A stretch of DNA of 64,000 nt, from NCBI RefSeq assembly GCF_023195775.1, contig NZ_CP096205.1, positions 3,431,001 through 3,495,000 on the forward strand, given 5' to 3'. Of this stretch, positions 42,088 to 54,349 are shown piece after piece. The position numbers were made by a program, and so were the translations under genes. Every line of letters starts with the position of its first letter. Position 1 is the first letter of the stretch. Below the pieces are notes generated by a model. That model ran no database searches. It saw nothing but the letters and a program-made list of their open reading frames with translations, and was not told where the DNA came from. Source of the stretch: Flavobacterium azooxidireducens (lineage in GTDB: Bacteria; Bacteroidota; Bacteroidia; Flavobacteriales; Flavobacteriaceae).

Positions 42088-42492
42088 ATGACAACAAGAG
42101 ATAGTTACATTATCGAAAACAGAGGTGAAGCTCTTGGCGTGGTAACAGAACAATCTTCTAAAGAAGAAAGGTTTCAAAACGTAACCATCCGCCCTATTCT
42201 TAAACTTCAAAATGATTTGTTTGTTGATGTTTTTAAAAATTATATTTCAAAATATAAGAATGATTTTTATTCGTATTCTACCGAAAAGAAATTACAGTTT
42301 ATTGAGAATTCAATCCAAAAGGATATCAAGTTCAGAAACTCATTAAAAGGAATGGTGATTGGATTATTTACTATAAATGAATACGAAGAATACATAAAAA
42401 ATTCATCAAACCTTAATAAAAGAATGATGAATATGTTGATTGAAAGATTAAAAAGCAACATCCAGCTGTTTGATACCCAGCAAGCTTCTTAA
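42088..42492 (+). CDS. Conserved flavobacterial protein of unknown function
   Basis: 134 residues, no signal peptide and no membrane segment. A helical, charged protein: IRPILKLQNDLFVDVFKNYI and IQKDIKFRNSLKGMVIGLFT seem to be its core. I recall similar proteins next to flavobacterial OmpA genes, sometimes labelled glyoxalase without visible support for that here. Its stop overlaps the stop of the converging META lipoprotein gene by 4 nt. Function is unknown. Confidence 0.65.
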   Translation: MTTRDSYIIENRGEALGVVTEQSSKEERFQNVTIRPILKLQNDLFVDVFKNYISKYKNDFYSYSTEKKLQFIENSIQKDIKFRNSLKGMVIGLFTINEYEEYIKNSSNLNKRMMNMLIERLKSNIQLFDTQQAS

Positions 42493-43565: not shown

Positions 43566-44279
43566 ATGAGAGAAGAATACTTCAAATGGCACTCCCCTAA
43601 CCTTGGCAGAGAAATTCAAATGTTGGTTTTTGGTCATGCTGGTTATCCGGTAATTTTATTTCCCACTTCGATGGGAAGTTATCACGAAAATAGAGATCAA
43701 GGTCTGATTGCTTCTGCTAAATGGTATATCGAACAAGGATTAATTCAAATATTTTGTCCCGATAGTATTGATAAAGACAGCTTTTATAATAAAAAAATTC
43801 ATCCCACACATCGAATACAAAACCATGTATTTTATGATAAAATGATTTGTCATGAAATTGTGGAGCGAGTGAAAAACAATACCTATTCAGGAAAAGTTGC
43901 CGTTGCCGGTTGTAGTTTTGGAGGATATCACGCAGCTAATTTTGCGTTTCGTCATCCTGGTTATGTTAGCCATATGTTTTCGATGGGCGGAGCTTTTAAT
44001 ATCAAAAGTTTTATGGATGGTTTTCACGACGATAATGTTTTTTATAACAGTCCTGAGGATTATCTGCACGGATTAAATGATCGTGAATTGTGGAATATGG
44101 ACATTGTCCTCGGAACTTCCAATTGGGATATTTGTTTTGATGCTAACTTAAAACTCAGCCGAGTCCTCGCCCATCGCGATATTCCGCACTGGCTAGACGT
44201 TAGACAAGACCGCGAACACGATTGGCCGGCTTGGAAAGAAATGTTTCCGCACTATCTATCAAGAATTAAATTTTTTTAA
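43566..44279 (+). CDS. Cytoplasmic alpha/beta-fold esterase of the amidoligase cluster
   Basis: 237 residues, no signal peptide. An esterase-D-like hydrolase with AVAGCSFGGYHAANFAFRHP (Ser117 in GCSFG), FSMGGAFNI and a C-terminal HDWPAW holding the candidate catalytic His. It is 21 bp ahead of an ATP-grasp gene and opens the plus-strand part of the cluster. It may hydrolyse an ester of the cluster's product or release it from a carrier. The substrate is unknown. Confidence 0.8.
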   Translation: MREEYFKWHSPNLGREIQMLVFGHAGYPVILFPTSMGSYHENRDQGLIASAKWYIEQGLIQIFCPDSIDKDSFYNKKIHPTHRIQNHVFYDKMICHEIVERVKNNTYSGKVAVAGCSFGGYHAANFAFRHPGYVSHMFSMGGAFNIKSFMDGFHDDNVFYNSPEDYLHGLNDRELWNMDIVLGTSNWDICFDANLKLSRVLAHRDIPHWLDVRQDREHDWPAWKEMFPHYLSRIKFF

Positions 44280-44300
44280 ACAACATAACACTTACCAACC

Positions 44301-45257
44301 ATGAAGAAAATTGGAATTTTATTTGGAATGGAAGACACCTTCCCCCAAGCGTTCATTGATCGAGTAAATTCAAAAAACGAAAAAGGCATTGTAGCCGAAG
44401 CTGTTTCCATTGATAAAGTCGTTCAAAACAAAGCCACAGAATATGCCGTTATCATCGACCGTATTTCGCAAGATGTGCCATTTTACAGAGCTTATTTAAA
44501 AAATGCAGCTTTAACCGGAACCGCCGTAATCAACAATCCATTTTGGTGGAGTGCCGATGATAAGTTTTTCAACAACTGTTTAGCGGATGTTTTAGGAGTT
44601 CCGTTACCAAATACAGTGATCTTACCTTCTGCTGAACATCCAACCGATACAACCAGCAAATCATTTCGCAATTTAGCCTATCCAATGGATTGGGAAGCAA
44701 TTTTTGATTATGTAAAATTTCCTGCTTATATGAAACCGTATGCCGGTGGTGGTTGGAAAAATGTCTATCGCCTTGAAAACCGAGATGAATTCTGGGAAGT
44801 TCACCGCGAAACCGGACAATTAGTAATGCTTTTGCAAGAAGAAATTGTTTTTGATCAGTATTTCCGCGTGTATTGTTTAGGTGGAAAAGCAGTCAAAATT
44901 ATGCCTTACGAACCAAGAAATCCGCATCATTTACGTTATGTTGTGGATGGACCTCCGGCTGATAAAAAATTGTTAGCAACTGTAAAAGACTATACTTTAC
45001 GTTTGTGTAAAGGTTTAGGCTATGATTTCAATACGGTTGAATTTGCCGTTCGTGATGGAATTCCGTATGCCATCGATTTTGGAAACCCTGCTCCTGATGC
45101 TGAATTGACATCTGTTGGAAAAGAAAATTTTGAATGGGTTGTCGAAGAAGCAGCGAATATGGCTATTGAATATGCTAAAAAGCACAAAGATGGTCAAATG
45201 AACTTGACTTGGGGAACTTTCATGAAAGGTTCTGTAAACGACGCCAAACGATTTTAA
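44301..45257 (+). CDS. ATP-grasp amide/peptide ligase
   Basis: 318 residues. An ATP-grasp fold of RimK-like type: pre-ATP-grasp region (1-95), MKPYAGGGWKNVYRL (ATP-binding Lys and glycine loop), VMLLQEEIVFDQYFRVYCLGGKAVKIMPYEP and a metal-site motif YAIDFGNPAPDAELTSVG. The last reads DFGNPAPD where many relatives have E-x-N-P-x-P-G, keeping the two metal-binding positions. Such enzymes join a carboxylate to an amine through an acyl phosphate. It sits between the esterase (21 bp) and the carboxylate-amine ligase (33 bp). Confidence 0.82.
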   Translation: MKKIGILFGMEDTFPQAFIDRVNSKNEKGIVAEAVSIDKVVQNKATEYAVIIDRISQDVPFYRAYLKNAALTGTAVINNPFWWSADDKFFNNCLADVLGVPLPNTVILPSAEHPTDTTSKSFRNLAYPMDWEAIFDYVKFPAYMKPYAGGGWKNVYRLENRDEFWEVHRETGQLVMLLQEEIVFDQYFRVYCLGGKAVKIMPYEPRNPHHLRYVVDGPPADKKLLATVKDYTLRLCKGLGYDFNTVEFAVRDGIPYAIDFGNPAPDAELTSVGKENFEWVVEEAANMAIEYAKKHKDGQMNLTWGTFMKGSVNDAKRF

Positions 45258-45290
45258 TAAACTCCTTTTAAATAGAATAAAAGAACGACT

Positions 45291-46400
45291 ATGAAGAAAG
45301 ATTTACCCGTTTTTACACTCGGTGTAGAAGAAGAATATTTGATTATTGACCCGGAAACAAGAGATTTGCGTTCGCATATGTCCAAAATTGTAGATGGAGC
45401 CAAAATCATTCTTCAGGAACAAGTGAAAGCCGAAATGCACCAATCTGTTGTAGAAGTTGGTACAAACATCTGTAAAAACGTTAAAGAAGCCAGAGAAGAA
45501 ATTACTTTTTTACGTAAAAAAATTGTCGAATTAGCCGCCAATCAAGGTTTGGTAGTTGGTGCTGCGGGCACGCATCCGTTTTCCAAATGGCAAGACCAAC
45601 CCATTACAGATGATCCTCGTTATCACATGATTGTGAATGAATTGCAAGATGCCGCTCGCTCCAATTTGATTTTCGGAATGCATTGCCACGTGGGAATTGA
45701 AAGTCGTGAAGTGGGTTTACAATTGATTAACCAAGCGTGTTATTTTCTACCGCATATTTTTTCACTTTCAACGAATTCGCCTTTTTGGGAAGGAAGAAAT
45801 ACGGGCTACAAATCGTTTAGAACGAAGGTTTTTGATAAGTTTCCTCGAACAGGTTTACCGGAATATTTTGATTCGGTTCAATCGTATGACAATTTCTTAG
45901 AAACATTAGTCAAAACGAATTGCATTGATAATCCGAAGAAAATTTGGTGGGATTTACGTCTGCATCCTTTTTACAACACGATTGAATTCCGCATTTGCGA
46001 TATGAGTTTAACTGTGGATGAAACGATTTGCATCGTCGCAATTATTCAAGCAATTGTAGCAAAATTGTATAAATTGAATACAGCAAACACTAGTTTTAAT
46101 GTGTATCGATTGGCTTTGATAAAAGAAAATAAATTCCGTGCCGCTCGTTATGGAGTGCAAGGAAATATGATTGATTTTGGTCTGCAAAAAGAAGTGCCAA
46201 CCAAAGATTTAATTCTCGAATTACTTGAATTTATTGATGATGTAGTGGATGAATTAGGAAGTCGAGACGAAATTAATTACGTCCACACCATCCTTCGTGA
46301 AGGAACCGGAGCCGCCAAGCAATTAGCCATTTTCGAACAAACACAGGATTTAACCAAAGTAGTAGATTTTATTACAAGCGAGTTTACAAAAGGAATTTAG
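45291..46400 (+). CDS. GCS2/YbdK-type carboxylate-amine ligase
   Basis: 369 residues with the glutamate-cysteine ligase type 2 fold. LGVEEEYLIID (Glu13-15), HCHVGIES and NTIEFRICDMSLTVDE are the metal- and substrate-binding motifs. YbdK itself makes gamma-glutamylcysteine only weakly, so members in clusters like this may use other amines. It follows the ATP-grasp gene by 33 bp. A 322-bp gap with repeats separates it from the next cluster gene. Confidence 0.9.
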   Translation: MKKDLPVFTLGVEEEYLIIDPETRDLRSHMSKIVDGAKIILQEQVKAEMHQSVVEVGTNICKNVKEAREEITFLRKKIVELAANQGLVVGAAGTHPFSKWQDQPITDDPRYHMIVNELQDAARSNLIFGMHCHVGIESREVGLQLINQACYFLPHIFSLSTNSPFWEGRNTGYKSFRTKVFDKFPRTGLPEYFDSVQSYDNFLETLVKTNCIDNPKKIWWDLRLHPFYNTIEFRICDMSLTVDETICIVAIIQAIVAKLYKLNTANTSFNVYRLALIKENKFRAARYGVQGNMIDFGLQKEVPTKDLILELLEFIDDVVDELGSRDEINYVHTILREGTGAAKQLAIFEQTQDLTKVVDFITSEFTKGI

Positions 46401-46420
46401 AAGGAAGATTTTAGAATTTA

Positions 46421-46490
46421 GAAACATTTTTGTCATTCCGAAACATTTTTGTCATTCCGAAAGATGACGAAGTCGAATTAGGAATCTCCC
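46421..46490. repeat. Tandem 19-mer and dispersed-type repeat
   Basis: The unit GAAACATTTTTGTCATTCC occurs at 46421-46439 and again at 46440-46458, followed by a GAAAGATGACGAAGTCGAAT segment and GGAATCTCC to about 46490. The second part looks like a family of intergenic repeats that I recall from flavobacterial genomes. Confidence 0.55.
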
Positions 46491-46694
46491 GTCTTGACAG
46501 GCAAAAATGTTCACACAACGAAATCCTTCTAAATCCATTAAGCAAAGCTTCAAAAACAAAACCCGCGAAAATCCATTTAATCCAAAAAATCCGTGTTCCA
46601 TTAAAAAAGTTTTAAAATCCGTGTTCAATTAAATTGTTAATTTCTATTGAATAAACAACAATAAAACCTTATCAGCCAACTAAATCAAAAGCGT

Positions 46695-46702
46695 TATCTT
46701 TG
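46695..46702 (+). promoter_or_regulatory. Candidate -7 box for the glutamine-amidotransferase-like gene
   Basis: TATCTTTG fits TAnnTTTG, 20 bases ahead of the start codon. No TTG is found at the right distance. It suggests that the gene after the repeat gap has its own promoter. Confidence 0.4.
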
Positions 46703-46722
46703 CATCAATAAATAGTTACCAA

Positions 46723-47550
46723 ATGAATTCACAAATAAAAATAGCGATTTTAGATATGTACGACGGCGAGCCCAATCAGGGAATGCGTTGTATTTATGAC
46801 ATCATCAACCGATTTAATCAAATGGTTTCATTTCAAGTTTTTGATGTTCGAGGTAAAAATGAATTACCCGACATTAAAAAATTTGATATTTTCATATCAA
46901 CCGGCGGTCCCGGAAATCCATTGGAAGGCGACGGAAAATGGGACGTGAACTATTTCAATTTAATCGATTCTTTGTGGAATTGGAATAACGAAAACGAAAT
47001 GAAAAAACACGTTTTGTTCATTTGTCATTCGTTTCAAATGGCTTGCAAACACTTTGGTTTAGCCGAAATCACCAAGCGAAAAGACACATCTTTTGGCGTA
47101 ATGACTACACATAAAGTGAATGAAGGTCTGACAGATCCATTATTTGAAGGGTTGGACAATCCGTTTTATACCATTGACAGTAGGGATTTTCAAGTGATTC
47201 AGCCTAAGTTGAAGAACATCAAAAAAATGGGTGCTCAAATCATTGCTTTAGAAAAAATCCGAGATCACGTGCAATACGAACGAGCGATTATGGGAATACG
47301 TTTTTCTAATGAGTTTGTGGGATTGCAATTTCATCCGGAAGCCGACCCATTGAGTTTCTTGGCTCATATGAAAAACAAAAGTTTCAAAGAAAAAATCATC
47401 AAGATGAAAGGTCGTCCAAAGTTTCTAAAAATGTTAGAAGATTTGGTGGATGAAGAGAAAATCTATCGCACAAACGAAACGATTATTCCAAACTTTCTTC
47501 GCATCGCCATCAACGATTTGATGAAACATAAAAAAATACTCTCTAACTAA
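46723..47550 (+). CDS. Class I glutamine amidotransferase-like protein
   Basis: 275 residues. The GATase1 triad can be placed at Cys101 (HVLFICHSFQMA), His204 and Glu206 (LQFHPEAD), with STGGPGNP forming the oxyanion strand region. The nucleophile context ICHSFQ differs from the common GxCxGxQ. The protein could supply ammonia from glutamine to a partner ligase or hydrolyse gamma-glutamyl bonds, like PuuD-type enzymes. It follows the GCS2 gene after a repeat-filled gap and ends at a clear terminator. Confidence 0.8.
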   Translation: MNSQIKIAILDMYDGEPNQGMRCIYDIINRFNQMVSFQVFDVRGKNELPDIKKFDIFISTGGPGNPLEGDGKWDVNYFNLIDSLWNWNNENEMKKHVLFICHSFQMACKHFGLAEITKRKDTSFGVMTTHKVNEGLTDPLFEGLDNPFYTIDSRDFQVIQPKLKNIKKMGAQIIALEKIRDHVQYERAIMGIRFSNEFVGLQFHPEADPLSFLAHMKNKSFKEKIIKMKGRPKFLKMLEDLVDEEKIYRTNETIIPNFLRIAINDLMKHKKILSN

Positions 47551-47571
47551 GTTTTATAAATTTTAAATTCC

Positions 47572-47609
47572 AAAAAAGACACACTAGTAATTTCTGTTGT
47601 GTCTTTTTT
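47572..47609 (+). terminator. Terminator after the glutamine-amidotransferase-like gene
   Basis: AAAAAAGACACA (47572-47583) and TGTGTCTTTTTT (47598-47609) form a 12-bp stem followed by further Ts. It is only 17 bp before the next start codon, so the ATP-grasp-like gene downstream depends on read-through or a start inside this region. Confidence 0.82.
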
Positions 47610-47625
47610 TTAAAAATATTTTACA

Positions 47626-48816
47626 ATGAATACAGCTTTCAGAAAACAATTCAACGAAGAATTCTCAACCGAAAAATACAATCAGTTAATTGATTCAATT
47701 ACCGCTGATTTTGATTATAAACCGACTTTCAGAATTGGAGAAACACCTTTTTTCATTTCAAATGAATTAAAAGCTCAATTGTTAGAAGGTTGTAACGAAG
47801 TGATAGCTTTTATTCAACAAGACAACTTCAAAGAATTAACAAACAGAGCATTAGAATTAAACAGAAAAGTCCCAAACGAAGACAATCACACTACTTTTTT
47901 AGCCATCGATTTTGGTATTTGTGAAGAAGATGGAAAAGTTATTCCGAAGCTTATTGAAGTACAAGGATTTCCTTCGTTGTTTAATTTTCAGAACCATTTA
48001 TCGCAAAAATTTGCTGACCTCTACCCTTTTCTAAATGAATTAACTCCTTATTTAAATGGTTTGGATAACGAATCGTATTTGAAATTAATCGAAGAAGTGA
48101 TTTGCAATAATTACCCAAAAGAAAATGTAATTCTGTTGGAAATTGAACCTGAAAAGCAAAACACCAAAATTGATTTCTATTACTGCAAACGCGACATCGG
48201 AATTCCCGTAGTTTGTGTGACAGAATTAATTCAGAAAGGAAAAAAACTGTTTTACACCAATAATAAAGGAATTGAAATTGAAGTAAAAAGAATCTATAAC
48301 CGAGTAATTTTTGACGAATTGGATTTGCGTACCGATTTGCAACTCAACTTTGATTTTTCTGCCGATTTAGACGTAGAATGGGCCGGACATCCGAATTGGT
48401 TTTTCCGAATCAGTAAATTTATTTTACCTTATTTAAAAGGAAAATATTTCATTGAAACCACATTATTAAGCGATTTAAAAGAAATTCCAACTGATTTAGA
48501 AAACTATGTGCTCAAACCGTTGTTTTCCTTCTCAGGAAGCGGCGTAATCTTCCACGTCAAAAAAGAAGACATCGAAGCTGTTACAGAAAAAGACTTATAC
48601 ATTCTACAGAAAAAAGTAAACTATCTTCCCATCATTCAATCACCGGATGGAAAAGTCAAAGCCGAAGTCCGCTTGTTAGCCGTTTGGAAAAAAGATGCTC
48701 CCTCGCCTACTTTAGTTACCAATTTAGTCCGACTAAGTCGTGGCGAAATGATTGGTGTGAAATTCAATAAGGATAAAGATTGGGTTGGTGGAACGGTTGG
48801 GATGTTTGAGAAATAG
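47626..48816 (+). CDS. Divergent, probably circularly permuted ATP-grasp-like protein
   Basis: 396 residues, no signal peptide. The C-terminal third has ATP-grasp features: ENYVLKPLFSFSGSGVIFHV (Lys and glycine-rich loop) and SPDGKVKAEVRLLAVWK. The N-terminal half has FLAIDFGICEEDGKVIPKLIEVQGFPSLFNFQ, where EVQGFPS could supply the metal-binding residues usually found at the C-terminus. This order points to a permuted ATP-grasp, as in glutathionylspermidine-synthase-like proteins. Its place in the cluster supports ligase activity, but the substrates are unknown. Confidence 0.6.
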   Translation: MNTAFRKQFNEEFSTEKYNQLIDSITADFDYKPTFRIGETPFFISNELKAQLLEGCNEVIAFIQQDNFKELTNRALELNRKVPNEDNHTTFLAIDFGICEEDGKVIPKLIEVQGFPSLFNFQNHLSQKFADLYPFLNELTPYLNGLDNESYLKLIEEVICNNYPKENVILLEIEPEKQNTKIDFYYCKRDIGIPVVCVTELIQKGKKLFYTNNKGIEIEVKRIYNRVIFDELDLRTDLQLNFDFSADLDVEWAGHPNWFFRISKFILPYLKGKYFIETTLLSDLKEIPTDLENYVLKPLFSFSGSGVIFHVKKEDIEAVTEKDLYILQKKVNYLPIIQSPDGKVKAEVRLLAVWKKDAPSPTLVTNLVRLSRGEMIGVKFNKDKDWVGGTVGMFEK

Positions 48817-48890
48817 CACTAATTTTTTTAGATAGAAGTATTTCATCGACTGTTCTTTTCATACATTTTTTCTAATTCAATTTTTCTAAT

Positions 48891-49397
48891 CTAAAATGGT
48901 ATTGCAATAATTGAAAAAAATAAAGATGCAAAAAGCACAAACTTTCTGTCACTACAATTATTTAGTTCCTCTATTTCAAATTGATATCTACTATTATTAT
49001 TGATTATTATAAATTTTTTATCATTTGCTTTTTTCTCTATTAACACATTTAGAGCTATTTTATCAATATTAGTATTGTTTTCTAGATTAATACGGTAAGT
49101 AGAATTATTTTTTAGTTTAATAACAAAATTACTATTAAAGTACGTTTGTTTAATTGGAAGATTAAAAGTGTCAGTAATCAATTGCGTTTTAATTTCATCC
49201 TTAATAAATTTTTTATTTTTATTATTCTCGAGTTTAAATGGATTACTATTGGCAACTACGATTTGGCCTATTATAACAATAACTAATATGGCAAAAATGT
49301 AATAGAATAAATTTTTTAAATTTAATCCATTATCATTTTCGTTTCTTAAAAATCCGAAAATATTTGAAAAATATTCGTGTGGTTTTATTCTATACAT
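48891..49397 (-). CDS. Small membrane protein, unknown
   Basis: 168 residues. Two hydrophobic segments (~30-50 and ~150-168) flank a polar Lys/Asn-rich region. Codon use is very A/T-rich and the sequence low in complexity compared with neighbours, hinting at recent arrival or weak constraint. It overlaps the upstream gene by 8 nt. No family is recognised. Confidence 0.5.
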   Translation of the reverse strand: MYRIKPHEYFSNIFGFLRNENDNGLNLKNLFYYIFAILVIVIIGQIVVANSNPFKLENNKNKKFIKDEIKTQLITDTFNLPIKQTYFNSNFVIKLKNNSTYRINLENNTNIDKIALNVLIEKKANDKKFIIINNNSRYQFEIEELNNCSDRKFVLFASLFFSIIAIPF

Positions 49398-49944
49398 TTC
49401 TTTGTTTTATAGCCAATCTTTTAACTTCATTCAAACTTAAATTTGAATTTATAATTCTTTCCACCATTTCTCTCCTCAAACCCTCCAAATCATCATACTC
49501 CAAATACATTGCCCAATCTTCTTCATTTAAAATTTGTTTGATAGTTTTAATCGTTTTGGCGGTTTCGGAGGCATTTCGTAACGCAGCTTTTCCATCATAA
49601 AACGGCATATCTTTATGAAAAAAATCAATGGTTTTCAGTTCAAAATCAACTTGAATAAAGAACAAGTTGGCGGTTTCGTCATTAGGGTAAAAATCAGTCC
49701 AGCGAGAAAAACCTATTTTGGTGTGTTGGTTTTTATAGTTGGTTAATGGTAACAATCGCCAACGACAATTAGCCACTCTTCCCCAATGGTTGGAGATGCG
49801 GTAAACACCTTCCTCGGTAAAAAAATATTCACTTCCTGACTTACTTTTGAAATGCGATTTCTGCAACTCAAAATCCGTTTGAGAAACTTCTTTCCAATGG
49901 CAAAAAGTATGTTTGTGGAAGTTTTTGGAGTGGTAGGTTTTCAA
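49390..49944 (-). CDS. Conserved uncharacterised cytoplasmic protein
   Basis: 184 residues, soluble, rich in His, Trp and Phe. Distinct segments are FHKHTFCHWKEVSQTDFELQ, YRISNHWGRVANCRWRL and TKIGFSRWTDFYPNDETANLFF. I recall related proteins in other Flavobacteriaceae, without a function. It overlaps the genes on both sides (4 and 8 nt), so the three small genes at 48891-50324 form one unit. Confidence 0.65.
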   Translation of the reverse strand: MKTYHSKNFHKHTFCHWKEVSQTDFELQKSHFKSKSGSEYFFTEEGVYRISNHWGRVANCRWRLLPLTNYKNQHTKIGFSRWTDFYPNDETANLFFIQVDFELKTIDFFHKDMPFYDGKAALRNASETAKTIKTIKQILNEEDWAMYLEYDDLEGLRREMVERIINSNLSLNEVKRLAIKQRNV

Positions 49945-50324
49945 TGTTTGAGATTTATTCTTTTGGTGTTTTTTATGTAATAAGGAACTTTTTCCTTTTT
50001 TAAATAATTAAACAACAAATCATTATCAATTATTCCTTTATGAGCAATGAAATAATCGGTAGAATCTTTTTTATTGATATAAACTACAATCGGTTGATTC
50101 TCATTTGTTATAAAATCTCCTTCTAAATATTTTTTTGATAATGTTAATGTTGAATCCATAAATACTTTATAGTGAATATGGTATTCTTTAATCCTGAAAG
50201 CTTTATATACTATTTTAGTTTCTGTAACTAAACCCTGCTTTTTATCATAATCTGCTTCATTGAAAACATTTTCGTCTTTACAACCAAATAACAAGAATAA
50301 AAAAATAAAGTAAATCGGCTTCAT
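49941..50324 (-). CDS. Small lipoprotein, unknown
   Basis: 127 residues. The lipobox FLLFGC puts the lipid Cys at 15. The mature part is charged with a few short beta-like stretches (VFMDSTLTLSKKYLEG, KIVYKAFRIKEYHIHYKV) and no known domain. First gene of a three-gene minus-strand unit that lies inside the amidoligase cluster, directly after two palindromic repeats. Confidence 0.6.
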   Translation of the reverse strand: MKPIYFIFLFLLFGCKDENVFNEADYDKKQGLVTETKIVYKAFRIKEYHIHYKVFMDSTLTLSKKYLEGDFITNENQPIVVYINKKDSTDYFIAHKGIIDNDLLFNYLKKEKVPYYIKNTKRINLKH

Positions 50325-50353
50325 TACTAAAGTATTGTTTTTATATTAGTTAG

Positions 50354-50390
50354 TTACACCTGACAGGTTTTTGAAACCTGTCAGGTGTAA
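50354..50390. repeat. Perfect 17-bp inverted repeat (REP-like)
   Basis: TTACACCTGACAGGTTT (50354-50370), a 3-nt spacer and AAACCTGTCAGGTGTAA (50374-50390). No T-run follows on either strand, so it is more likely a dispersed palindromic repeat than a terminator. I recall similar sequences in flavobacterial intergenic regions. Confidence 0.8.
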
Positions 50391-50441
50391 TGAATATAAA
50401 TTTCAAAGTCAAAATCTATCTTTGTATAAGTTTTATCTGTT

Positions 50442-50516
50442 GCCACGAATTACACGAATTACACGAATTTTAAAAAAGCAATCCAAATAATTCGTGAAAT
50501 TAGTGTAATTCGTGGC
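50442..50516. repeat. Palindromic repeat with 27-bp arms and three 9-mers
   Basis: The left arm (50442-50468) begins GCCACGAATTACACGAATTA and the right arm (50490-50516) is its complement with two mismatches. The left arm holds three tandem CACGAATT[A/T] 9-mers. It abuts the stop codon of the ATP-grasp gene at 50523. This looks like a miniature dispersed element typical of Bacteroidota, without coding capacity. Confidence 0.75.
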
Positions 50517-50522
50517 TAAAAA

Positions 50523-51740
50523 TTAATGCAACTTCTTCACCGCCTGTTGCTCTGCAACTGTGGCGAAGTCTCTCACCAATCGCTCTGCATAATCATCTAA
50601 TAATTCACGAACACGTTCGTGCTTTTCTGATTTCACAATCAATCCGGCATGGTATTCCAACGGTACACGGAAACATACTTCACTATCATTAAATCCACTC
50701 AAATCAGGCTGTTCAAATTTTGATAACGTCAACACAATTCCGGCAAATTGTTTCTTTTGCGAAGGAACTTTATATTCTTTTCCTCTCACCAACGCATCTT
50801 CAATTTTTGCCCATTCTCCCCACAAATTAATGTCGGAAGCAGCTTCCACCATCTCAGCCAAATGAGCTCCACCTACTCTCGAAGAAGTTTCTAAAAAGTA
50901 AATTTTTCCATCTTCATTGCATTTGATAAACTCGGTGTGAGTTGCTCCGTGCTTCATCCCAAACGCTTTCATCACTTGCTCGTTCACTTTTTTAATGGCT
51001 TTGTCATCGGCAGAATTATATGGAATATTGGCACTTCTAAAAATACCGCCACCTTGCGAAATCTCCATCGGCGTAGCCAAATATTGCGATGTTAAACTGA
51101 ATAAAACTTTGCTGTTAAAATTCAATCCGTCACAATGATAAACCGCTCCGGGTTTGAATTGTTCTACTAAATATTTAATGCGATTATTTCCTAATTCATG
51201 TATTTTTTCCCATAATTCATCCTTCGAATGTACTTTCATAATTCCGGATGCAGAAGCTTCCGAACGCGGTTTTAAAACCCAAGGCGGCGAAACCGTTTCA
51301 GCAAAATGATTGATATATTCATCATTAAACAAAGCACTAAATGGCGGTACCGGAACACCTTCGGCTTGAGCTTTCACTCGCATTGCTAACTTGTCACGGA
51401 AATACCTTCCGGTGGTTTGTCCCATTCCGTCAACACGCAAATTTTCACGTAAATAGGTTGCTTTTTCTACATCAAAATCATCCAAAGCCACAATAGCATC
51501 TACTTTTTCCGTTCGCATTAGTCCGGCAACACCTTGCAAAAGCATATCCAAATCCCAATCAATATCTTGCCCCGGCATATAAAAAATTTCATCAATCGAA
51601 TCAAAAGCCCACGGTTTGTCACGCAGTTTTTCGGAAGTGATCAGAAAAACTTTGTTTCCTAATTTCTTCAAATTAATTAAAAAATCATTTCCTTTAAAAT
51701 AATTGGAAATACAGATGAAGGTTTTGGTATTATTTTCCAT
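50523..51740 (-). CDS. ATP-grasp carboxylate-amine ligase
   Basis: 405 residues. Pre-ATP-grasp domain (~1-110; FICISNYFKGNDFLI, VDAIVALDDFDVE), ATP-grasp core with WVLKPRSEASASGIMKV (ATP Lys and glycine loop), KYLVEQFKPGAVYHCDGL and the metal site HTEFIKCNEDGKIYFLETSSRVGGAH. The C-terminal ~80 residues resemble the lid of carbamoyl-phosphate/biotin-carboxylase-like enzymes. It forms amide or peptide bonds with ATP. It is 3 bp after the M17 peptidase gene and last in the minus-strand unit. Confidence 0.88.
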   Translation of the reverse strand: MENNTKTFICISNYFKGNDFLINLKKLGNKVFLITSEKLRDKPWAFDSIDEIFYMPGQDIDWDLDMLLQGVAGLMRTEKVDAIVALDDFDVEKATYLRENLRVDGMGQTTGRYFRDKLAMRVKAQAEGVPVPPFSALFNDEYINHFAETVSPPWVLKPRSEASASGIMKVHSKDELWEKIHELGNNRIKYLVEQFKPGAVYHCDGLNFNSKVLFSLTSQYLATPMEISQGGGIFRSANIPYNSADDKAIKKVNEQVMKAFGMKHGATHTEFIKCNEDGKIYFLETSSRVGGAHLAEMVEAASDINLWGEWAKIEDALVRGKEYKVPSQKKQFAGIVLTLSKFEQPDLSGFNDSEVCFRVPLEYHAGLIVKSEKHERVRELLDDYAERLVRDFATVAEQQAVKKLH

Positions 51741-51743
51741 ATA

Positions 51744-53153
51744 CTATTGGTTTTCAATAAAATTAGTAATTAAATGCACGCCAAAAGCCGTTGCGTGTTT
51801 GGTTTTGGCAAATTCATCATCCACGAAAGTGACACCGGCAATGTCAAGATGTGCCCAAGATGTATGATTTTCGGTAAAAAATTCTAAAAATTTGGCAGCA
51901 GAAATTGCTCCCCCAACCGGTTTTCCGGAGTAATTTTTCACATCAGCAATTTCACTTTCTATGTCCGATTTGTAAGCATCCCATAATGGTAATGGCCACA
52001 AACGCTCCCCTATTCCATCTCCGGCAAGCTGTAATTGTTTGACTAACAATTCATTATTTGTAAATAATGCTCCACATTCATTACCAAAAGTGGCAACGCT
52101 GCTTCCGGTTAAGGTTGCTAAATCAATAACCGTTTCCGGATTATAATTTTTAATTAAATAGGACAAACCATCGGCTAAAATCAGCCTTCCTTCGGCATCG
52201 GTATCAATAATTTCGATGGAATGACCGCTATAACTTCCAATCACATCGCTTGGTAAAAACGAATTGGCGTCCACCGAATTTTCACAAGCCGGAACAATCG
52301 CCGTTACTCGATAAGGAAGTTGTAAATCAGCAATCAATTGCATTGCTCCTAAAACTGCTGCACCACCCGCCATATCACACTTCATATGAACCATTCCGGC
52401 CGTTTTGATGTTGAGTCCGCCCGTGTCAAAAGTGATGCCTTTTCCAACCAAACCAATGTGTTTTTTAGCATTTTCGGGTTGATAATCCATCACGATAAAC
52501 TGTGATTCATTGGCACTTCCTTTTCCTACGGAAACAAAAGCATCTAATCCTAAATCTTTTGATTTTTGATGACCGAAAACTTCGACTGAAAATCCGAAAT
52601 TTTTACCTGTTTCAATTGCCCAATCGGCTAAATGTTTCGGAGTAATTTTATTAGGAGGTAAATCAACCAAATGATAGGTTTCCAATTGAGCATTTGCAAT
52701 TTTCAAGCCTTTATCTATTGCATTTTTGACATCGGAATACGAATTTACTTCAAAAATAAAATCCTCAGATTCCAACGGATGATGCTTTTTATCTTTTTTG
52801 TAATGACCTAATTGATACGTTCCCAGCCATAAACCGGAAATAATCGCTTCGATATTATCTGTGGATAAATCGCCGGAAAGAAACAATTTAGCTTCTTCTT
52901 TAAAATATGTTTTTTGCTTTGCTGAAATTTTTCGAAAAGTTGCTTTAATTGATTTATAATCCGGATCCTTTCCTAAACCGATAAATAAAAAGATATTTTC
53001 ATCCTTTTCATAAAAATAAAGACTGTCTTTTTTTCCTGAAAAAATTGTTTTGGATAAATGGATTTCATCAAAAATAATCGCCTCTTCTGCTTCCAAAAGC
53101 GGAATTAAATTGAGTTTTTTATGGGTTTGATTGTTTGTATAATGGATTTTCAT
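51744..53153 (-). CDS. M17 family leucyl aminopeptidase
   Basis: 469 residues, no signal peptide. All two-metal residues of the family are visible: Lys238 and Asp243 (VGKGITFDTGGL), Lys250, Asp260 (MKCDMAGG), and Asp319, Glu321 and Arg323 in IDTDAEGRL. The N-terminal ~150 residues form the variable macro-like domain. Between an esterase gene (56 bp upstream) and a ligase gene (3 bp downstream), it probably removes N-terminal residues from the peptide-like product or from a modified protein. General peptide turnover is the alternative. Confidence 0.92.
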   Translation of the reverse strand: MKIHYTNNQTHKKLNLIPLLEAEEAIIFDEIHLSKTIFSGKKDSLYFYEKDENIFLFIGLGKDPDYKSIKATFRKISAKQKTYFKEEAKLFLSGDLSTDNIEAIISGLWLGTYQLGHYKKDKKHHPLESEDFIFEVNSYSDVKNAIDKGLKIANAQLETYHLVDLPPNKITPKHLADWAIETGKNFGFSVEVFGHQKSKDLGLDAFVSVGKGSANESQFIVMDYQPENAKKHIGLVGKGITFDTGGLNIKTAGMVHMKCDMAGGAAVLGAMQLIADLQLPYRVTAIVPACENSVDANSFLPSDVIGSYSGHSIEIIDTDAEGRLILADGLSYLIKNYNPETVIDLATLTGSSVATFGNECGALFTNNELLVKQLQLAGDGIGERLWPLPLWDAYKSDIESEIADVKNYSGKPVGGAISAAKFLEFFTENHTSWAHLDIAGVTFVDDEFAKTKHATAFGVHLITNFIENQ

Positions 53154-53209
53154 CGTAAATTTTTATTTTTTGATTTTTGACATTGTAATTGCAATTGATA
53201 TTGTCATTG

Positions 53210-54349
53210 TCATTCTTCTTTCGTACTAAAAAACAACCATTCAATTGCTTTCGGAAATTCATCACTCCAATACACTTCGTTGTGTTTTCCCTGTTCGTTG
53301 ATGCTCAATCGCACTTTCATTTTATCATTTAACGCATCCTTTTTAAGTAATCGCTTTTTGAAATTCTTCACGTGATCAATCATCGTAGCACTTTCATCAC
53401 CGCCGGCATACAAGTAAATTCGGGTATCTTGTGGTTCATCCATATCTAAAAAAGACAATTTGATTTTTGGAACAACCCAAAGCGATGGCGAAAAAATCAT
53501 CAGTTTACCAAAGACTTCGGGATACATAATTCCACTAAAAATACTGACTAATCCACCCATTGAACTTCCGCCAATTCCTGTGAATTCACGTTCAGGTTTG
53601 GTTCTGAAATTTTCATCAATAAAGGGTTTCAATGTGTCGGTTAAAAAACGAATGTACTTTTTTCCTTGTCCGGTACCAAGAACCGTATTACCGACATTAT
53701 ACTCCAAAATTCGTTCACTATCAGCGTGCTCAACTGCAATAACAATGATTTTTCCAATGTTGTATTCAGCCATAACGGCTAACTTCTTATCAATTTCCCA
53801 GTTACCGTATTTTGCATTTTCATTGAATAAATTCTGGGCATCTTGCAAATACATTACCGGATAATGATCTTTTGAAGTCTCATAATCATACGGCAATAAA
53901 GCCCAAACTTTTCGTTTTTTATTCAACTGTGGAATTTCAAATTCTTCGGAAACTAAATGCACTTTTGGTAAAAAATTGGGTTTAAAAGGCAACCAATTGT
54001 GTCGCCATTTTGCTACGTGCTCCTTTTTAACACCGCTATGTTGTTTGCACGAACGATTTTCTGTCCGATTTCCGTATTTATCAATTTCAACTTCGCTCCA
54101 ATCTCCTCGCGTAAATTTGTATAAAAGTTCGTCGGGATACTTAAAATCATAAGGGAATTTATAATGATAAAGTCCTTTTCCGACCTTTTCCATTAGAAAT
54201 TTTTTGTCTTGCGTAATCCAATTGTTAAAATTTCCGGAAATATAAACCGGCCGATCGTCATCTTCATCGGTGGTTAAAAGTAAATTGAGTTGGGGTTCAA
54301 TAATTTCTTTTTCAGGCTGTTGGGGTAGTATATTTTCTGCTGGCTTCAT
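53210..54349 (-). CDS. Esterase D-like hydrolase with N-terminal CBM48-like domain
   Basis: 379 residues, no signal peptide. Residues ~20-110 resemble a CBM48/early-set domain (PVYISGNFNNWI, GLYHYKFPYDFKYPDELLYKF). Residues ~125-375 are a PF00756-type esterase with GIGGSSMGGLVSIFSG (Ser263), YAGGDES and KHNEVYW (candidate His). The combination is known from ferri-siderophore and carbohydrate esterases. It is the first gene of the minus-strand half of the cluster and the second esterase of the locus. Confidence 0.82.
   Translation of the reverse strand: MKPAENILPQQPEKEIIEPQLNLLLTTDEDDDRPVYISGNFNNWITQDKKFLMEKVGKGLYHYKFPYDFKYPDELLYKFTRGDWSEVEIDKYGNRTENRSCKQHSGVKKEHVAKWRHNWLPFKPNFLPKVHLVSEEFEIPQLNKKRKVWALLPYDYETSKDHYPVMYLQDAQNLFNENAKYGNWEIDKKLAVMAEYNIGKIIVIAVEHADSERILEYNVGNTVLGTGQGKKYIRFLTDTLKPFIDENFRTKPEREFTGIGGSSMGGLVSIFSGIMYPEVFGKLMIFSPSLWVVPKIKLSFLDMDEPQDTRIYLYAGGDESATMIDHVKNFKKRLLKKDALNDKMKVRLSINEQGKHNEVYWSDEFPKAIEWLFFSTKEE

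Follow-up and report, generated by a model that had tools for sequence, protein, structure and literature searches.

A conserved ligase operon of Bacteroidota as a candidate module for a small, possibly gamma-glutamyl, peptide

What might be assembled by several amide-forming ligases whose genes lie beside those of a peptidase and two esterases? The question is raised by a 64,000-nucleotide stretch of the genome of Flavobacterium azooxidireducens (NCBI RefSeq assembly GCF_023195775.1, contig NZ_CP096205.1, positions 3,431,001 to 3,495,000), hereafter the window; the genome is a single 3.82-Mb contig. A first description made from the letters of the window, the sequence-only reading, had named eight genes here and interpreted the 11 kb as an amidoligase cluster whose product would be peptide-like, or a tag, of unknown nature. 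All eight genes sit where that description placed them, spanning positions 43566-54349, and its identifications are correct gene by gene. The genes form two units, a five-gene core operon on the forward strand (EstA-AG318-GCS2-GAT-AG396, 43566-48816) and a convergent accessory block on the reverse strand (AG405, M17, and EstB, 50523-54349). We tentatively favor an interpretation in which the locus makes a small peptide without the ribosome, probably one of gamma-glutamyl type, and in which three ATP-dependent ligases (AG318, GCS2, and AG396) are the usual core of this biosynthetic module.

The arrangement of the core operon is widely maintained. Relatives of AG318 were found in at least 586 confirmed stretches of named genome contigs, of which the best 80 were used; 12 of these 80 loci had flanks too short for gene-order counts and were left out (likewise 2 of 12 and 3 of 40 in other locus sets). 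Both the order and the orientation of EstA-AG318-GCS2-GAT-AG396 are kept in 62 of the remaining 68 relatives, with the core genes on the same strand and mostly separated by short gaps. The cluster is not a chance association. Flanking genes (named by eye) vary by lineage; Flavobacterium, for example, has ompA and a 134-residue protein, Algoriphagus has a carbonic-anhydrase-like gene, pyrE, and coaD, and Dyadobacter has an aminotransferase. It is therefore the core that is preserved as a block. Pairwise distances for four core proteins across 79 loci correlate at 0.90-0.95, uncorrected for shared ancestry. The AG405-M17-EstB block adjoins the core in only 15 of the 68 relatives, and a single eight-gene cluster was therefore rejected; these three genes are accessory rather than core, and their block occurs mainly in flavobacteria. 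The proposed 11-kb cluster thus recurs beyond chance in its core, and it divides into two units and encloses three further small genes. M17 and EstB travel with AG405, which is also found beside other versions of the locus (L125, L213). The closest named relatives of AG318 among the best 80 belong to Flavobacterium and to a "Bacteroidetes" metagenome genome (97% identity).

Two loci stand out individually. A contig filed as Bifidobacterium breve (L105) holds the five-gene core, with an AG318 that is 88% identical to the query; this metagenome genome appears to be mislabelled or contaminated. The accessory block of Flavobacterium sp. ACAM 123 (L109) gives two matches for M17, as if the gene were split or duplicated, and one match for each of the other genes.

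The genes also occur together across whole genomes. Each of AG318, GAT, and AG396 is present in 12 of 149 genomes of the family, the same 12 for all three. Strong matches to AG405 are present in seven genomes, all within the 12 that bear the core, and weak matches (E 1.6e-8 or worse) in 11 further genomes. The 11 other loci of these 12 genomes all carry the five-gene core, six with the AG405-M17-EstB block and five without. Across the phylum, profiles of AG318, AG396, and GAT were run against 395 genomes. Only strong matches were counted, which removed 5 of 139, 1 of 115, and 21 of 107 genomes, respectively, and left 134 with AG318, 114 with AG396, and 86 with GAT. Together, AG318 and AG396 occur in 110 genomes, AG318 and GAT in 84, and AG396 and GAT in 69. 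AG396 is found in 74 of the 170 genera sampled, and the distribution of the module over the phylum is patchy. Homologs of a divergent AG318 are named also in Acidobacteriota (metagenome genomes of Pyrinomonadaceae).

Co-occurrence of the ligases extends beyond physical linkage. In 48 of their 110 shared genomes, AG318 and AG396 are separated by over 10 kb or fall on separate contigs; 10 of these 48 pairs are on one contig, at distances from 11 kb to more than 1 Mb. Since the two genes still occur together when they are not adjacent, the link between them is independent of position. The sequence-only reading had regarded scattered, unlinked genes in related genomes as grounds for abandoning the cluster. 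The genes are linked in near relatives, as described above, and AG318 and AG396 are apart in the 48 phylum genomes; continued co-occurrence in the latter means that scattering does not refute a functional link. The GCS2 subfamily was sought in 80 chosen genomes, of which the AG396-positive ones were picked mostly for scattered genes. It was found in 32 of 33 genomes with AG396, in one of eight with AG318 alone, and in one of 23 with none of the profiled genes (G152, 297 bits). The proposal of an amidoligase group with a peptide-like product is upheld in that the ligases recur together throughout the phylum, also in genomes where their genes are separated, and they very probably form one pathway; no positive evidence emerged for a tag, which the sequence-only reading had offered as the alternative.

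Coordinates of the eight genes and of other features of the locus are collected in Table 1. The two small genes of 48891-50324 other than the 184-residue protein were not found at that place in the 80 relatives at the score used. The 184-residue protein is also present between AG396 and AG405 in 8 of 80 relatives, and no tie of it to the pathway was found. The 134-residue protein upstream of the core has relatives near the core in 27 loci and may be a mere conserved neighbor.

Table 1. Features of the ligase locus, in window coordinates
Feature	Position	Strand	Description
134-residue protein	42088-42492		Without Pfam match
EstA	43566-44279	+	Alpha/beta-hydrolase, esterase-like; opens the core operon
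AG318	44301-45257	+	RimK/LysX-like ATP-grasp ligase; commonest member across genomes
GCS2	45291-46400	+	YbdK-like carboxylate-amine ligase
GCS2-GAT intergenic stretch, 322 bp	46401-46722	no strand	Interspersed repeat (46420-46690), not a precursor gene
GAT	46723-47550	+	Stand-alone class-I glutamine-amidotransferase fold; probably a hydrolase
AG396	47626-48816	+	ATP-grasp ligase; superfamily of YgiC, glutathionylspermidine synthetase, and eukaryotic glutathione synthetase
Three small genes	48891-50324	-	Inside the interval, outside the conserved set
184-residue protein	49390-49944	-	One of the three small genes; without Pfam match
AG405	50523-51740	-	L-amino acid ligase-like ATP-grasp protein; accessory
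M17	51744-53153	-	Leucyl-aminopeptidase-like; accessory; 3 bp from AG405
EstB	53210-54349	-	PF00756 esterase with N-terminal extension; accessory

The family assignments differ in the kind of evidence behind them. Neither AG318 nor AG396 matches a Pfam family at E<=0.01, and their identification as ATP-grasp ligases derives from a weak RimK-family match for AG318 and from predicted structures for both. AG318 scores 28.1 bits against TIGR00768 (RimK), far under the cut-off of 143.4, and its predicted structure folds like RimK and LysX. The predicted structure of AG396 is like those of YgiC, glutathionylspermidine synthetase (GspS), and eukaryotic glutathione synthetase; PF03738 (GSP_synth) gave no match in its own genome. 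Residues Asp95, Glu111, Lys297, and Arg349 of YgiC are kept in AG396. GCS2 matches PF04107 with 201 bits (cut-off 21) and NCBIfam PRK13515 with 525 bits (cut-off 371), and is 29% identical to E. coli YbdK, with the conserved Glu/His/Arg columns kept. Columns invariant in five sequences include Glu13, Glu15, His131, His133, Asp221, Arg223, Glu232, and Arg234, which we take to be catalytic in YbdK-type ligases. GAT matches PF00117 with 37 bits, over the Pfam cut-off, and its Cys101, His204, and Glu206 are invariant in 27 sequences. EstA shows Pfam abhydrolase/Esterase matches slightly under the cut-offs, has esterases as its closest solved chains, and keeps Ser117, Asp188, and His218 invariant in 15 sequences. 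In the accessory block, AG405 scores 34.4 bits against the Pfam family ATP-grasp_4 (cut-off 27), and its profile, A4, detects the solved L-amino acid ligases 4wd3 (86 bits) and 3vot (47 bits); M17 matches PF00883 (Peptidase_M17) with 359 bits and EstB matches PF00756 (Esterase) with 97 bits, both over the cut-offs.

Reduced and altered forms of the locus help to define its constant part. The trio AG318-GCS2-AG396 occurs alone and linked at two loci (L207, L209). At three others (L205, L216, and L217; Pfam matches for L205 and L217) an M29 peptidase lies between GCS2 and AG396 in the place of GAT, a replacement that fits a hydrolase role for GAT and suggests that GAT fills a role open to a peptidase. 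Another substitution concerns the 16 genomes with AG318 and GAT that have no AG396. In all 10 loci read from these genomes, the gene directly beside AG318 encodes a protein of some 460 residues, a circularly permuted ATP-grasp protein designated CPAG. Two CPAG proteins were scanned, of which one exceeds the CP_ATPgrasp_2 cut-off and has weak GSP_synth and GSH_synth_ATP matches, and the second has only sub-cut-off matches to permuted ATP-grasp families. The AG396 fold belongs to the superfamily of CPAG (its predicted-structure matches include 3n6x). These patterns suggest that two ligases, AG318 and a member of the YgiC/glutathione-synthetase superfamily, make up the usual constant part, in most cases joined by GCS2. 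Tagging systems that combine a circularly permuted ATP-grasp protein with an alpha-E protein and an N-terminal nucleophile (NTN) hydrolase are a known type. Ten chosen neighbors of CPAG, from six of the ten loci, included no alpha-E and one Asparaginase_2 protein, presumably of the NTN-hydrolase type. The gene for the latter (L213:13386-14375) adjoins AG405.

Further neighbors recur where the genes are scattered. Of 20 scattered AG396 loci, six, belonging to two families (L222, L223, L224, L231, L235, and L240, with Pfam scans of L222, L224, and L235), have an Amidohydro_3 hydrolase gene immediately before AG396 and in the same orientation; it is possibly a further partner. Thioredoxin-like genes occur in 7 of the 20 scattered AG396 loci, also from two families, and their position varies. 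In one genus an arginine decarboxylase gene adjoins AG396 divergently (L224, scanned, and L235), of note because the RefSeq product name of E. coli ygiC is peptide--spermidine ligase. An aromatic amino acid lyase gene lies beside AG318 at two loci of one family (L201, scanned, 675 bits, and L212).

GCS2 and ATP-grasp ligases couple a carboxylate to an amine via an acyl phosphate. From the genes, their predicted folds, their conserved order, and their co-occurrence, we infer the following scheme of reactions. GCS2 would couple the side-chain carboxylate of glutamate, or of a similar acid, to an amine. AG318 would then attach a further amino acid, as RimK and LysX do, and AG396 might attach the last amino acid or cap the C-terminus with an amine, in the manner of glutathione synthetase or YgiC. 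GAT would be a hydrolase of the gamma-glutamyl-peptidase kind and not a source of ammonia; together with EstA, EstB, and M17 (M29 elsewhere) it may trim or recycle the product. AG405 could supply an extra dipeptide unit in some lineages. A chain of three ligases suggests three bonds or alternative substrates. The product is probably a small molecule; a gamma-glutamyl bond at its start and an amine or amino acid as its terminal cap are a more tentative proposal, perhaps correct. A broader extension of this scheme is doubtful and is offered as speculation: the 110 of 395 Bacteroidota genomes with AG318 and AG396 may make a hitherto unrecognised gamma-glutamyl peptide-amine conjugate via a dedicated three-ligase pathway alongside bacillithiol, one that follows the same chemical logic as trypanothione and glutathionylspermidine and had an independent origin.

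Several observations weigh against the favored module. No substrate or product was identified in the analysis. Three positions of the YgiC active site, the roles of whose residues we assume, are changed in AG396 (Arg100 to Ala93, Asn117 to Gln113, and Glu308 to Ser303). The acceptor and the metal site of AG396 may therefore differ from those of YgiC, which makes the amine-capping step a guess, and for the same reason AG396 is said here to work like YgiC and GspS and is not filed as a member of their group. The association of AG318 with AG396 in the 395 genomes has a Fisher p of 7e-68, which ignores phylogeny and is descriptive. For those of the 48 non-adjacent pairs that are not on one contig, breaks between contigs may hide some neighbors. 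GCS2 is found in 8 of the 16 CPAG-type genomes and missing from the other 8, and was not found near AG318 in L121, L125-L128, and L134; it is thus not universal. GAT is missing at the strong level in 42 of the 110 genomes that hold AG318 and AG396. Finally, 8 of the 134 AG318 genomes are without both AG396 and GAT, and in seven of these (L178-L184) nothing beyond AG318 was recognised at the locus; AG318 is divergent in seven of the eight (E 7e-62 to 6e-103) and may have other uses there.

Among the alternatives, the one that survives best, while still unlikely, is protein modification. AG318, as a RimK-like enzyme, would add amino acids to the tail of a protein or peptide, the other ligases would extend or cap the addition, and the hydrolases would reverse it. 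The structures closest to AG318 include RimK, one entry of which contains a ribosomal-protein partner, and LysX/ArgX with the carrier LysW, and the presence of several hydrolases alongside the ligases would suit a reversible modification. Enzymes of the GCS2 and YgiC/glutathione synthetase groups, in contrast, mostly make small molecules. Open reading frames (ORFs) of 20-120 residues between core genes were collected from the 80 loci, giving 132 in total. No conserved small carrier or target gene was found among them (genes elsewhere lie outside this search), and none of the ORFs is common to loci whose AG318 proteins are less than 85% identical. When pairs of any identity were allowed, there were five small clusters of two to three close relatives each. 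Addition of 600 bp on each side gave 33 clusters, the 12 largest of which lie, by eye, outside the gaps, in neighboring genes or flanks. The wide gap between GCS2 and GAT in the window was considered as the site of a precursor gene for a ribosomally synthesized and post-translationally modified peptide. The repeat that fills most of it has 44 matches in its own genome, itself included, with copies grouped near 2.33 Mb and 3.63 Mb, and the corresponding gap is mostly less than about 150 bp in relatives. A precursor at this site was rejected on the grounds of the repeat, the mostly short gap in relatives, and the lack of a small ORF shared by loci less than 85% identical in AG318.

A role in stress tolerance is rather improbable. 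The product would be a short peptide or peptide amide that serves as an osmolyte, for which the N-acetylglutaminylglutamine amide pathway of proteobacteria offers a comparison. The patchy distribution in the phylum and the combination of a ligase, an amidotransferase-fold protein, and a peptidase are consistent with such a solute. The 42 genomes that lack GAT at the strong level do not fit it, and no acetyltransferase family match was found in the ten interval proteins scanned.

It is less probable again that the locus encodes a new low-molecular-weight thiol pathway, in which an amine would be conjugated as in glutathionylspermidine. The pairing of GCS2 with a ligase folded like eukaryotic glutathione synthetase and GspS recalls the logic of glutathione synthesis, and only 2 of 30 core-positive genomes have a PF02955 (GshB) score over 150 bits (no search was made for the bifunctional GshF). 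Weaker PF02955 matches, up to 80 bits, occur in 17 others of the 30 and are taken as RimK-type by score only. Nothing, however, points to cysteine as a substrate. BshC of the bacillithiol pathway, moreover, was found in 65 of the 66 genomes searched for it (43 of 44 AG318-positive and 22 of 22 AG318-negative; BshA and BshB were not searched), so that another thiol is predicted either way and the module need not serve as the sole source of a thiol. The last alternative, in which ATP-grasp ligases would convert a ribosomal precursor into a graspetide-type peptide, is very improbable, because no small ORF between core genes is shared by loci less than 85% identical in AG318, a repeat occupies the wide gap of the window, no precursor gene was met among the clusters inspected within 600 bp of the operon, and GCS2 is not a graspetide enzyme.

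If the locus is indeed a module for a small peptide, more than one quarter of the sampled Bacteroidota (the 110 of 395 with AG318 and AG396) would hold a small-molecule pathway for which no assigned product was found. Tools built around the detection of non-ribosomal peptide synthetases (NRPS) easily overlook clusters that have no carrier proteins. Co-occurrence now defines three genes and their enzymes, making the question of the product directly testable.

Neighborhoods in which ligases and peptidases occur together without NRPS are already known. Predicted amidoligase gene neighborhoods of this general idea were reportedly described by Iyer and colleagues in 2009, in a survey that may mention a related neighborhood. 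The same idea applies to the R2K-clade neighborhoods (PMC4431377), in the main text of which there is no mention of Bacteroidetes, glutamate-cysteine ligase, glutathionylspermidine, aminopeptidase, or esterase. Literature searches, in which papers were mostly judged by title and the start of the abstract and which did not take in the Iyer survey, returned no paper on the present gene set; within the same limits, none of the literature searched described the trio across the phylum, the associated replacements, or the co-occurrence of its genes when unlinked. The E. coli proteins YgiC/YjfC and GspS provide the closest comparison for AG396, which is 18% identical to YgiC. Unlike the present module, ygiC has no GCS2 or RimK-like gene within the 14 kb around it. 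Eukaryotic glutathione and homoglutathione synthetases and the fungal ligase Cp1B are 10-16% identical to AG396 over aligned parts, and in structure comparison with AG396 human glutathione synthetase and Cp1B fall 1.4 and 3.5 Z units below YgiC. In contrast to the eukaryotic glutathione synthetases, AG396 shows no sign of a cysteine or gamma-glutamylcysteine substrate. Cp1B, the ligase of E-64 synthesis, is described as a case in which a glutathione-synthetase-type fold makes a natural-product amide (PMC12568646). Compared with YbdK-type GCS2 ligases, the GCS2 protein of this operon is distinguished by two recurrent ligase partners.

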